Assembly: GCA_001789695.1 (NCBI GenBank) | Contig: MGAI01000006.1 | Span: forward strand, 1 to 60,396 | Direction of reading: 5' to 3' | DNA: 60,396 nt | Source: Candidatus Roizmanbacteria bacterium RIFCSPLOWO2_01_FULL_37_16 | Lineage (GTDB): Bacteria > Patescibacteriota > Microgenomatia > UBA1406 > GWC2-37-13 | Part shown: positions 179 to 4,480 of the stretch, piece after piece | Position numbering within the stretch: the first letter of the stretch is position 1 | Layout of the letters: every line of letters starts with the position of its first letter | Translations under genes and position numbers: made by a program | Notes under the pieces: generated by a model | Told to the model about the DNA's origin: nothing | The model's database searches: none | What the model saw: only the letters and a program-made list of their open reading frames with translations

Positions 179-3100
179 ATGGCCTTACTCGATTTTATTA
201 AAAAACCCAAGCAAAAATCAAGCGCAAACAATCAAGTTCCATCTCAAAATACAACTACAACCCACAATCAAGTTGTTGAGACAACTCAACCAACTCAATC
301 AACTGGCCCACAATCATATAGTGGGATAGGTAATCCTCCAGGCGGCCAGGCTTATTCAGGCATTGGTCCTCCTCCCCAACCCCATGTTGAAAGCGCACAA
401 TCTACAACCACGGTGACTAAAACCACAAGTTCACCATCAGTAGCCGTCCCAACAGCTCCGACTACTAATGTAAGAGGCGAAGAAAAGAAGCGTGAAGAGA
501 TTGATCTGATGACGCATCTGACCCAAAGATCCAATAGAGTATTTTTGTCGGCTCAAAATAAAACTAGGGAATTAAACCTAGAGTTTGTCGATAGTGAGCA
601 TCTTTTACATGGACTTTTATCAGACAGCGAGATTTACAATCTTTTTATTGAACTTAAAATTCACCCACAACTTATCGAGGAGGAATTAAAAAAAATTTAT
701 AAAAAAGGAACAAGTCAAAAGTTGCCTCAACTATCCCCCCGAGTCAAACGAATTCTAGGTCTTTCTCTAACAGTTGCCCGGAAGCTTCGTTTTGAATTTA
801 TATCACCAGAACACATTCTTTTGGCTCTATATGAAGAAGGAGAAGGGGCAGGAGCTAAAATATTGTCAAAACTTGGGTTAAAAAAACAGGATCTTAATAA
901 AAAAATTATCGGCAAAAAAGAAGGGCTTGAACAGACCGAAAAAGCTGAAGAAGCCAAAAAAAGCACGGTTGAGCGATTTACAATCGATCTGACAGCAAGG
1001 GCTGCCCAAGGACTTTTGGATCCGGTTGTTGAGAGGTCAGACGTAATCGAAAGAGTCATCCACATCTTGTCAAGAAGAACTAAAAATAATCCTGCTTTGG
1101 TAGGGGAGGCGGGCGTTGGTAAAACAGCTATAGTTGAGGGACTAGCGCAAAAAATTGTTAGCAAAAACGTCCCTGAGTCACTTCTTAACAAAAAAGTTTT
1201 GCAGCTTGACTTAATGAGTATGGTAGCTGGAGCTTCGCATAGGGGTGAATTTGAGGAAAGGATGAAAGAGTTGATCGATCAGGTTCAGGGGAGCAAAGGT
1301 CAGATTATTCTTTTCATAGATGAGATTCACAATATTGTGGGTGCGGGCTCGTCCGGCGAGAATGCCATGGACGCGTCAAATTTCTTAAAACCCGCCCTTG
1401 CCAGAGGCGAGCTTCAGCTCATTGGTGCAACTACGCTTACTGAATATCGCAAATACATAGAAAAAGATCCGGCCCTAGAGCGAAGATTTCAACCGGTTTT
1501 GGTACAAGAGCCAACCATTGAACAAGCCATAAAAATGCTTAAAGCGATAAAAGATAAGTATGAAGCATTTCATAGAGTTAAGATTCCTGACGAGGCTGTA
1601 GATGCCGCGGTAAAGCTTTCAAAAAGATATGTAGGGGATCGATTTCTACCAGATAAAGCAGTTGATCTAATTGATGAGGCAGCCTCAGCGGTGCGACTAC
1701 CTTTGATATCTCTTCCTGAGGAGATTAAATCGATTGAGACGCGGATCGCTGAATTAAATCAGGAAGTTCAGGAGTCGGAAAAATCCGCAGATAAAGTAAA
1801 GGTACGAATTCTTCGCTCTAAAATCGATGACATCGAAGCTACGCTAAAAGAGAAAAAGGCAGAATTTGATATGAGAAAAGCCCAGACAACCTCGGCCGTG
1901 AGTGGGGAAATTATAAAAGATATTGTTTCACGTTGGACCGGCATCCCAATCTCCAAAATCAGTGAGTCAGAAGTTGAGCGTTTAGCCCAACTTGAGAAAA
2001 TTATGCACCAGCGGTTGATTGATCAAAATATTGCAGTTGAGGCTGTGGCACAAGCTGTAAGAAGAGGAAGAGCAGGATTAAAATCTACACAAAGACCAAT
2101 CGGGAGCTTTGTCTTTTTAGGGCCAACTGGTGTTGGTAAGACAGAACTTGCAAAAACATTGGCAGAAGTTCTATTTGGTCAAGAGGAAGCAATGGCACGT
2201 TTTGACATGACAGAATATATGGAGAGGCACGAAGTTGCAAAGCTTCTTGGTGCGCCACCGGGATATGTTGGATATGAGGAGGGAGGAAAGTTGACTGAGG
2301 TGGTTAGAAGAAAACCATATTCGGTTGTCCTTTTTGACGAAGTGGAAAAAGCCCACCCGGATATTTTTAATATTCTGCTTCAGATTCTTGACGATGGCAG
2401 GTTGACAGACAATAAAGGTCATGTGATTTCGTTTAAAAACACAGTTGTGATCTGCACATCTAACATCGGAACACAGCTTATCCAGGATGAGCTTTTGAAA
2501 AATGGCAAAATTGAGATAGAAGAGCCCCCATTTTTATCTACCTACACATTCTCACCCAGAGGCAGAGAGATTTTGACCATCGGGACAAAATATTTTGAGA
2601 GAGAACGTATTAATCAGGCAACGCAGAATGGTAGCTTCAAAACAGAGGAAGATAGTAAGCCTGGTGAGAGTTCTTGGAAAGAGGGCATGCTTTTGGATTA
2701 TTTTGCCGGCCAAGAGATAAAAAGTGATGATAAATCCGTCCTTCCTGCCGGTCCGGATGTTAAGCCTGGAAAGTCAAAATCTGACTTCCCTGTTTCAGGA
2801 TTTGACAGCCATACAATTTCATTCAAAGGAGAGGAGTTAATAAGCAAGGGTAGCACTGTATATGTTAGAACTTCGACTACGGCAAAGATCTGGAATACCA
2901 CAACTCTTATAGATTATTTCAAAGACGGTATTGTTGTGAATGCTCTACCCGATGAACCAGAAGAACAGCTTCCAACCGTAAAGTTGAAGACGCATGCTTT
3001 TACTCCTGATGAAAAAGAGATAGTCAGTTTTAAAGATCGCTTTTGGGTACGCAAGGAAGGATCTAATGATTGGCAGACCGGCCATTTGAAAGATTATTTT

Positions 3101-4156
3101 GCCGGAGCAGAAATTCAAGAGGTAAAAAGTCAAGAACCTGCCAAACAGGAGCAAAACCTAAATAATGGAAGTCAAGCTAAAAGCAAAACCAGTCAAGATG
3201 ATGAAAAAAAGGAGGTTAAAGAAACTACTAAAACATTTCCTACCGCCTATTGGGATATCCATACCTTCTCACCCTTAGGTAAAGAAATAATAATTTGCGG
3301 AGACACTGCCTGGTTTAGAGATGACAGTAAAAATATCTGGCAGACTCAGTCGCTTAACGAATATTTTGGCAAGGATTTTCCCCTAGAGAAAGAACTTGAG
3401 GAAAAAAGAAAGATTGATGAAGAAATAGATAACAAGAAATACGGTTTAATAAAAAGCAAAGTCAGCACAGAGCTGCGAAAATTCTTTAAACCCGAACTTC
3501 TCAACAGATTTGACGAGGTAATAATTTTTGAGCCACTTAAGTTTACCCACATGATGCAGATAGTCAGATTACAGCTTAAGGCCATTGGAAAATTACTCGA
3601 AGATCAAGATATAGGATTTATTTATACAGAGGCGGCTGTAAAAGAGATAGTGCGAGAAGGGTTTGATCCTATCTATGGTGCCAGACCCCTTCGTCGGGCT
3701 ATTCAAAAGCTGATTGAAAATCCCATTTCAACGCTTATTATTGAGAAAAAAGTCAAAGCTGGAAATCAGATACAGGCCGATTTTGACGGTGAGAGCTTTA
3801 TTTTCAATATAGAAAAGGTAGAGCTGGTACCGGAGGAAAAGTTGAAAAAAAAGACGATAAAAAACTTTTTCTGCGAAGCTTGCGGTCACAATTTTAAAAC
3901 GATGGTAGTAAAAAATTCTACTGTTATCTGTAGTAGATGCGCCTCGACGAAAGTCCAAGAACTCATCGAGTCACCCGATGTGGTTTCTTTAGAGGAGAAA
4001 TCTCCTAGCCAAAAAGATGGAAAGCCCTCCTTCGCTAAAGCTTCGGAGGGTGAAGAAGAAAAAACTAAATTATCAAACGACGGAAAATTAAGTGGCGAAG
4101 AAGTTGATAAGCATGATTCTTCTCTAAAAAACAGTTTTCAGGCATCCCCTGCATAA
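179..4156 (+). CDS. clpC: ClpC-type AAA+ unfoldase with a repeat insertion in D2
   Basis: This is a two-ring Clp/Hsp100 ATPase that unfolds proteins, normally for ClpP. From ATG 179 it has about 1325 residues, where typical ClpC has about 810-850. Order: Thr/Gln/Pro-rich disordered N-terminus; Clp-N repeats (~115-255); D1 with Walker A GEAGVGKT (~309) and Walker B LFIDEIHN (~378); a short ClpC-like middle coil (~520-575); D2 with GPTGVGKT (~648), LFDEVEK (~718) and sensor-1 TSN (~761). A Lys/Glu/Ser-rich insertion of about 310 residues with four repeats (nt ~2500-3430) then precedes the Arg-finger segment PELLNR (nt ~3500). After D2 come a zinc ribbon, CEAC...CSRC (nt ~3868-3945), and a charged tail. 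The insertion sits where ClpA and ClpC carry the IGL/VGF ClpP-docking loop, and no clear VGF is left. The extended 137 GTG start is unlikely because the promoter lies downstream of it. Confidence 0.9.
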   Translation: MALLDFIKKPKQKSSANNQVPSQNTTTTHNQVVETTQPTQSTGPQSYSGIGNPPGGQAYSGIGPPPQPHVESAQSTTTVTKTTSSPSVAVPTAPTTNVRGEEKKREEIDLMTHLTQRSNRVFLSAQNKTRELNLEFVDSEHLLHGLLSDSEIYNLFIELKIHPQLIEEELKKIYKKGTSQKLPQLSPRVKRILGLSLTVARKLRFEFISPEHILLALYEEGEGAGAKILSKLGLKKQDLNKKIIGKKEGLEQTEKAEEAKKSTVERFTIDLTARAAQGLLDPVVERSDVIERVIHILSRRTKNNPALVGEAGVGKTAIVEGLAQKIVSKNVPESLLNKKVLQLDLMSMVAGASHRGEFEERMKELIDQVQGSKGQIILFIDEIHNIVGAGSSGENAMDASNFLKPALARGELQLIGATTLTEYRKYIEKDPALERRFQPVLVQEPTIEQAIKMLKAIKDKYEAFHRVKIPDEAVDAAVKLSKRYVGDRFLPDKAVDLIDEAASAVRLPLISLPEEIKSIETRIAELNQEVQESEKSADKVKVRILRSKIDDIEATLKEKKAEFDMRKAQTTSAVSGEIIKDIVSRWTGIPISKISESEVERLAQLEKIMHQRLIDQNIAVEAVAQAVRRGRAGLKSTQRPIGSFVFLGPTGVGKTELAKTLAEVLFGQEEAMARFDMTEYMERHEVAKLLGAPPGYVGYEEGGKLTEVVRRKPYSVVLFDEVEKAHPDIFNILLQILDDGRLTDNKGHVISFKNTVVICTSNIGTQLIQDELLKNGKIEIEEPPFLSTYTFSPRGREILTIGTKYFERERINQATQNGSFKTEEDSKPGESSWKEGMLLDYFAGQEIKSDDKSVLPAGPDVKPGKSKSDFPVSGFDSHTISFKGEELISKGSTVYVRTSTTAKIWNTTTLIDYFKDGIVVNALPDEPEEQLPTVKLKTHAFTPDEKEIVSFKDRFWVRKEGSNDWQTGHLKDYFAGAEIQEVKSQEPAKQEQNLNNGSQAKSKTSQDDEKKEVKETTKTFPTAYWDIHTFSPLGKEIIICGDTAWFRDDSKNIWQTQSLNEYFGKDFPLEKELEEKRKIDEEIDNKKYGLIKSKVSTELRKFFKPELLNRFDEVIIFEPLKFTHMMQIVRLQLKAIGKLLEDQDIGFIYTEAAVKEIVREGFDPIYGARPLRRAIQKLIENPISTLIIEKKVKAGNQIQADFDGESFIFNIEKVELVPEEKLKKKTIKNFFCEACGHNFKTMVVKNSTVICSRCASTKVQELIESPDVVSLEEKSPSQKDGKPSFAKASEGEEEKTKLSNDGKLSGEEVDKHDSSLKNSFQASPA
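4025..4050. repeat. Palindromic repeat inside the clpC 3' end
   Basis: The segment runs from CCCTCC to GGAGGG around a TTCG/CTTCGG core, and is read in frame as PSFAKASEG within the disordered tail of ClpC. GC-rich palindromes that code for a bland peptide fit a small mobile palindromic element rather than a functional domain. The core resembles the CTTCGGCGAAGG hairpin in the repeat at 11286-11425. Confidence 0.5.
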
Positions 4157-4159
4157 GAG

Positions 4160-4480
4160 ATGGATACTAGATACTTAGCACAACAAGTTTGTATTGGTGG
4201 ACAATGTGTAACGGGAGCTCTTGATCCTAGTATTAAGACTGTGGCAGATTTGGTAAATAGGATTGTCCAGTTTCTTATTCCTCTAGCTGCCCTCATTCTT
4301 TTACTGGTTTTCATCTGGGGAGGTTATGATTATATGATGTCGCAAGGAAGTCCTGAAAAACTAAAAAGTGCTCAGGCAAAACTAACCACAGGAATTATTG
4401 GCTTTATATTGCTACTTCTTGCTTTTATAATAGTGAGGTTGATAAGTCAAATATTTGGATTAGGTGGTGGGATTATCTGA
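4160..4480 (+). CDS. VirB2/TrbC-like type IV secretion pilin family protein
   Basis: A 106-residue protein starting 4 nt after the clpC stop. It has a short extracellular-type N-terminus with two cysteines (CIGGQC) and two hydrophobic segments (~35-56 and ~80-102), separated by the small loop WGGYDYMMSQGSPEKLKSAQ. This TM-loop-TM pattern with a GSPEKLK hinge is that of the T4SS_pilin (VirB2/TrbC-like) family, common in CPR genomes as a lone small gene. The role is uncertain: it may be a pilus or secretion-channel subunit, or an unrelated small membrane protein. It is convergent with pyrH and the two coding regions overlap by 21 nt. Confidence 0.65.
   Translation: MDTRYLAQQVCIGGQCVTGALDPSIKTVADLVNRIVQFLIPLAALILLLVFIWGGYDYMMSQGSPEKLKSAQAKLTTGIIGFILLLLAFIIVRLISQIFGLGGGII

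Follow-up and report, generated by a model that had tools for sequence, protein, structure and literature searches.

Clp unfoldases are textbook components of bacterial proteolysis. ClpC, ClpX and ClpE dock the peptidase ClpP through a VGF-type loop in the AAA2 module, and mutation of the VGF motif of ClpE abolishes this docking (PMC13125188). Another group of Hsp100 proteins, the ClpP-independent disaggregases, release unfolded substrates for refolding (PMC8129007). The present study deals with a clpC-like gene in a stretch of 60,396 nucleotides (contig MGAI01000006.1, referred to here as the window) of Candidatus Roizmanbacteria bacterium RIFCSPLOWO2_01_FULL_37_16. The gene is a complete open reading frame (ORF) of about 1325 amino acids, located at 179..4156 on the + strand, as are all of its features given below. 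Its product is a ClpC-type Hsp100 double-AAA+ ATPase, and its closest solved relatives are the ClpC proteins of S. aureus and B. subtilis (E 2e-231). It was observed that the short ClpP-docking loop in the second AAA+ module (D2) of this protein is replaced by an insertion of 311 amino acids, which is predicted to fold as a four-bladed beta-propeller with disordered linkers.

Like the ClpC/ClpE-type Hsp100 proteins of S. aureus and B. subtilis, the window protein has the order N-domain, first AAA+ module (D1), short middle domain (M-domain) and D2, together with all the catalytic motifs. It differs from ClpP-partnered ClpC/ClpE in carrying the predicted propeller of ~300 amino acids in place of the VGF loop, in the lack of a canonical ClpP in its genome and in the addition of an N-terminal tail and a C-terminal zinc-ribbon-like segment. 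The disaggregases ClpB, ClpG and ClpL are likewise two-ring Hsp100 proteins without a ClpP-docking motif. However, these simply lack the docking loop, whereas the window ClpC has a domain predicted to fold there, and we know of no ClpB, ClpG or ClpL disaggregase with a folded domain at this site. ClpB also has a long M-domain and binds DnaK, whereas the M-domain of the window protein is of ClpC and not ClpB length, as the alignment to S. aureus ClpC runs over residues 111-771 without a large gap. No description of such a ClpC insertion was found in open-licence papers.

The insertion in the docking loop and its predicted fold

The alignment with S. aureus ClpC (6em8) covers residues 111-771 of the window protein, counted from the codon at nt 182, and resumes at residues 1083-1211. 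S. aureus ClpC has 8 residues where the window protein has 311, a net gain of about 303 amino acids. The break falls in D2 between sensor 1 (TSN, nt 2456) and the Arg finger (LLNR, nt 3497), and the insertion occupies 2495..3427. An earlier note on this DNA, made from the letters by themselves, had described ~310 extra residues between these two motifs at the position where ClpP docks, and the alignment bears out both the size and the site. It had also described four repeats, which were found within a few bases of where it placed them, at 2534..2719, 2801..2941, 2984..3115 and 3251..3379. The similarity between repeats exceeded that of 2000 shuffles for every pair (6/6 pairs p <= 0.007, 4/6 pairs p <= 0.0005, z up to 13.5). 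The repeat length of ~43 residues given there needs correcting for repeat 1, which is 62 residues long because it has an extra disordered linker inside that is missing from most relatives. No VGF had been visible to the earlier reader, and a scan of the D2 loop for a docking tripeptide ([LIVMFYW]G[FLYIM]) likewise found none; the sole match in the region is YGL, which lies outside the loop and opens the helix following the insert.

Searches of Pfam, NCBIfam and PDB sequences with the insert and with a profile of the repeat yielded no credible match; hits to NF033828, N_BRCA1_IG and YopN were rejected as noise. With 33 natural homologues as input, AlphaFold2 (AF2) modelled the insert at a predicted local distance difference test score (pLDDT) of 84, rising to >95 across most of blades 2 and 3, and a predicted template modelling score (pTM) of 0.80. 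All the AF2 models are of monomers and were made with no templates. The insert model has four strand-strand-strand-strand-helix (E-E-E-E-H) units with disordered linkers between them. When this model was compared with the PDB by Foldseek, the top matches were four-bladed propellers of the hemopexin fold, all with probability 1.00 and a target template modelling (TM) score of 0.65-0.73. They include hemopexin (1qjs, E 6.9e-7), the matrix metalloproteases (MMPs) MMP14 (3c7x, target TM 0.71) and MMP9 (1itv, 0.70), vitronectin (0.69-0.73) and plant albumins (0.65-0.69). Against a viral structure library the matches were insect-virus matrix metalloproteases, also of the hemopexin fold. A WD40/PD40-like propeller, the first guess from SPDG-like motifs, was rejected, as the fold comparison favours hemopexin.

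In the model, therefore, the four repeats are the four blades of a single hemopexin-type beta-propeller and not free-standing units. Like hemopexin, the hemopexin domains of MMPs, vitronectin and plant 2S-type albumins, it is predicted to have four blades of four strands and a short helix each. Unlike them, it is inserted in an intracellular AAA+ protein, has disordered linkers between the blades and shows no sequence match to hemopexin (PF00045), either in Pfam or in a profile search of PDB sequences. A hemopexin fold with no sequence-level hemopexin match thus makes this an undescribed propeller family. D2 was also modelled together with the insert, at moderate confidence (pLDDT 77, pTM 0.66). 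In this model a helix of 34 residues (3383..3484; helix 479-512 of the model) comes after the propeller and continues into the usual D2 helix that precedes the Arg finger, a predicted stalk linking the propeller back into D2. The connector between blades 2 and 3 (2942..2983), with the sequence NALPDxPxEQLPT, is highly conserved; in two alignments its N, L and P are invariant and most of the other positions are conserved at >=90%. The anatomy of the insert is firm.

It had been allowed earlier that the repeats could be an artefact of one assembly. A survey found the insert in 34/57 relatives and, in the class sample, in 47/373 genomes, other orders included; in two of the 47 (G105 and G231) the carrier is a secreted protein and not ClpC. 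With the insert in >30 independent genomes, an assembly artefact is rejected. Where named, the genomes with the insert are nearly all Candidatus Roizmanbacteria or Patescibacteria. Among 380 genomes sampled across the phylum, those with the insert in ClpC were all of its own family, and of two weak matches in this sample one (G648) is a related secreted protein and the other (G671) seems unrelated. No relatives of the insert were found in viral contigs, and a viral origin was rejected, the viral fold matches being structural only. Most of the inserts are four-bladed. The blades are conserved across families, with W/Y/F/G/E/R positions invariant across orders, and the linkers are free to vary (17 to >100 aa). 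The ratio of nonsynonymous to synonymous substitution rates (dN/dS), taken only where dS is unsaturated, is 0.02-0.13 for the insert as compared to 0.01-0.04 for the surrounding D2 body. The insert is therefore under purifying selection, and it changes 2-4 times faster than the D2 body. In one relative (L091, 1-2220) a second propeller seems to be nested within blade 1 of the first. In another (L100:1165-2223, genome G040) an ORF of 353 amino acids has a degenerate D2 ATPase domain (GPTGPAKT) and keeps the four repeats; it is possibly a propeller protein from a decayed clpC.

A search with a repeat-level hidden Markov model (HMM), of the kind suggested in the earlier note, detected the same repeats outside ClpC. 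Four repeats were found in a DUF2961 protein (L131:3-2372, E 1.2e-22), and weaker matches in a dockerin-bearing Glyco_hydro_42-like protein (L132:1636-4035, - strand) and in a single-pass membrane or secreted protein of 257 amino acids (L141:1129-1899, - strand). The profile of the ClpC propeller matched the L131 propeller by hhalign at E 1.6e-13. The ClpC domain thus belongs to a mobile propeller family that is otherwise seen on exported proteins. These relatives from the Candidate Phyla Radiation are exported enzymes or surface proteins, whereas the propeller in the window sits in an ATPase.

ClpP and the docking motif in related genomes

Whether this genome encodes ClpP was a check proposed at the outset. 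ClpP (PF00574) gave no match above the cut-off in the genome, which is 92.6% complete (best E 3.4), and none in five genomes of the same genus. The window protein therefore lacks both marks of a ClpP partner, namely the docking tripeptide in the D2 loop and a ClpP encoded in the same genome. At E <= 1e-10, ClpP is present in 318/380 genomes of the phylum sample as compared to 19/350 genomes of the class sample. ClpP of canonical strength (E <= 1e-44) occurs in 11/350 genomes of the class, in families f5, f20 and f32, and the other PF00574 matches in the class, at E 1e-18 to 1e-24, are to divergent proteins that resemble ClpP. No canonical ClpP was found in the class sample in the insert-bearing families f1, f2, f3, f4, f21 and f25. 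Another known peptidase ring, HslV or the 20S proteasome (PF00227, E <= 1e-5), was rejected as a partner since it is missing from the genome of the window and present in 2/57 relatives.

ClpC proteins from the ClpP-bearing classes of the phylum have a loop that still contains [LIVMF]GF and is 49-62 residues long, counted between sensor 1 and the Arg finger, and the motif-free short loops among sequences of these classes look like ClpB-type paralogues. In the ClpC clade of the class (50 rows) no [LIVMF]GF motif was found, whether the proteins bear the insert or not. A tree of the D2 body, with the insert left out, places the ClpCs of the class in one clade with a support of 100 in the Shimodaira-Hasegawa-like approximate likelihood ratio test (SH-aLRT). 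The motif-free and insert-free forms branch first, and thus the docking motif appears to have been lost before the propeller was gained, the deep branches of the tree being weakly supported. The fewest changes that explain the history of the insert on this tree are 8, at least 3 of them forced by strongly supported branches, and one early gain followed by several losses is likely.

Proposed function and competing explanations

We consider it probable, on balance, that the window protein is a ClpP-independent unfoldase in which a ring of six propellers round the exit pore serves as a platform for binding a partner or the product. The [LIV]GF motif and ClpP would have been lost in an ancestral member of the class of Patescibacteria to which Candidatus Roizmanbacteria belongs. 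Later, a four-bladed propeller of the hemopexin fold, from a family also present on secreted enzymes of these bacteria, would have entered the docking loop that had fallen vacant. Six propellers on helical stalks would encircle the exit side of the D2 pore in the hexamer, the geometry of which we infer. Because all the catalytic motifs are intact, the ATPase would continue to unfold and thread its substrates. As ClpP cannot dock, the motor would release the threaded substrates or hand them on rather than feed them to ClpP, a non-proteolytic outcome. Propellers most often serve as binding platforms, and the ring would most likely bind a partner or the emerging polypeptide; judged by its sequence, the conserved connector between blades 2 and 3 is most likely the binding face. 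The earlier note had offered a substitute platform for the binding of partners, or an unfoldase that is not proteolytic, and such a function, though inferred, fits every test that was run. It could be possible, too, that the propeller acts as a tethered adaptor or a cap.

A propeller at the ClpP site in a ClpP-less group of tiny uncultured bacteria suggests that a degradation machine was turned to another job, a natural example of an AAA+ protease that has parted with its peptidase. In a large bacterial class ClpP seems to be missing from most members while many retain ClpC, and a subset has rebuilt the exit face of ClpC with a fold familiar chiefly from the matrix proteases of animals and the seed proteins of plants. 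The question of what receives the substrate of a Clp motor in the absence of a peptidase is thereby made testable, and there is an undescribed propeller family that moves between secreted enzymes and an intracellular motor. A more far-reaching version is tentative: this whole Hsp100 lineage may have exchanged the loop that docks the peptidase for an exit ring of six propellers, which would recruit downstream partners of a new class, such as the M50-like membrane protease linked to clpC or a factor for refolding or export. If true, this would be an as yet undescribed type of unfoldase machine in bacteria.

Several points weigh against a ClpP-independent platform. The genome searched for ClpP is incomplete, at 92.6%, and a divergent protein resembling ClpP (E about 1e-19 to 1e-21) is present in three relatives that bear the insert (G011, G039 and G072). 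The insert has been lost in several relatives of the same family (L045-L047, L051, L052, L057 and L105), and some ClpC proteins of the clade can therefore do without the propeller. The supporting models are template-free AF2 monomers, that of D2 with the insert being of moderate confidence, and the role in binding would follow from the fold by analogy.

One rival explanation retains proteolysis, with the propeller docking another protease such as the M50B-like membrane protein linked to clpC. The gene for this polytopic membrane protein of ~230 amino acids adjoins clpC in many relatives (family f1, one f2 genome and family f25); it shares the strand of clpC in f1 and is convergent with it in f25. 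It is found at L070:7727-8410 and in about 27 further distinct copies (e.g. L087, L097, L099, L111, L112, L133, L136). All 28/28 carry HExxH and an invariant H58, E59, H62, D98 and D155, and the protein is a candidate functional partner of the ClpC of this lineage. M50 proteases and Clp ATPases act serially in regulated proteolysis (RseP/ClpXP), which counts for this explanation. However, the resemblance to Pfam M50B/M50 is weak (E 0.004-0.014, under the curated cut-off), and the gene does not adjoin clpC in the window or in four congeners (L064-L067). It accompanies insert-bearing and insert-free clpC alike, so it does not track the propeller, and we regard docking on such a protease as unlikely. 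A little less likely again is a propeller that chiefly closes or regulates the exit pore, or mediates the assembly of ring on ring, without binding a partner. On general grounds six such domains, each about 45-50 A across, would more or less occupy the radius of the docking loops, and the stalk is a long helix in the model of D2 with the insert; yet the long variable linkers and the conserved face between blades 2 and 3 are more suggestive of a domain for binding than of a packed plug.

Another rival, in which ClpC would attach by its exit face to a membrane channel and push proteins through it, in the manner of Hsp101 in the PTEX translocon of Plasmodium, seems improbable. It would agree with the frequent membrane-protein gene beside clpC, with the related propellers on exported proteins and with a second Clp ATPase of the genome whose N-terminal hydrophobic segments probably span the membrane, but the insert-bearing ClpC has no membrane anchor and no translocon partner was identified. 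It could also be argued that the insertion is near-neutral and was tolerated once ClpP was lost, given that the insert was lost several times in the family, where well-supported branches require no fewer than 3 changes, and that it changes faster than the D2 body. The low dN/dS, the four blades kept in nearly all copies, the residues invariant across orders and the retention of the insert in a gene with a degenerate ATPase domain (G040, L100) make this very improbable. Least probable of all, and disfavoured, is a protein that is still a ClpP partner through a cryptic docking element and a divergent ClpP. Divergent PF00574 proteins do occur in G011, G039, G030 and G072, and a VGF, LGF or IGF triplet is present in 3/36 homologous inserts. 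These triplets, however, lie in variable linkers and never at a constant position, the own genus has no PF00574 match, and the ClpP-bearing classes have short docking loops with [LIVMF]GF at the usual place.

Other domains and neighbouring genes

The ATPase motifs of the window ClpC are intact, including Walker A and B, sensor 1, the Arg finger, sensor 2 and the pore loops. The ATG start is at 179, with a GTG at 137 as an alternative start, and the Pfam-type layout is Clp_N, AAA (D1), AAA_lid_9, AAA_2 (D2) and ClpB_D2-small. An N-terminal Ser/Thr/Pro-rich tail of about 110 amino acids with two YSGIG motifs (179..511) precedes the Clp N-domain (512..922), which aligns to the ClpC N-domains 3wdb, 7aa4 and 6cn8. 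YSGIG motifs similar to those of the tail are also present in an insert-free relative (L111). D1 with the M-domain of ClpC length spans 968..1948 (Walker A GEAGVGKT at 1103, Walker B ILFIDE at 1307), and the first part of D2 spans 1949..2494 (Walker A GPTGVGKT at 2120, pore loop GYVGY at 2261, Walker B VVLFDE at 2324, sensor 1 at 2456). After the insert, the Arg finger at 3497 and the D2-small domain with sensor 2 (GARPLRR, 3677) occupy 3497..3775. These are followed by a C-terminal zinc-ribbon-like CxxC...CxxC appendage (3866..3967; Zn_ribbon_8 E 3e-4, under the curated cut-off) and then a charged tail. The appendage after D2-small is found in insert-free relatives as well and is degenerate in some relatives (L060).

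The second ClpA/B/C-type ATPase of the genome is a 775-aa ORF (G000:C4:39000-43500, L103); it has no ClpP-docking motif, and similar proteins are present in most relatives. In the window and in four congeners, clpC is directly followed by a gene for a small membrane protein resembling a type IV secretion system (T4SS) pilin (4160-4480; PF18895, E 5e-10), homologues of which lie near clpC in 24/36 loci.

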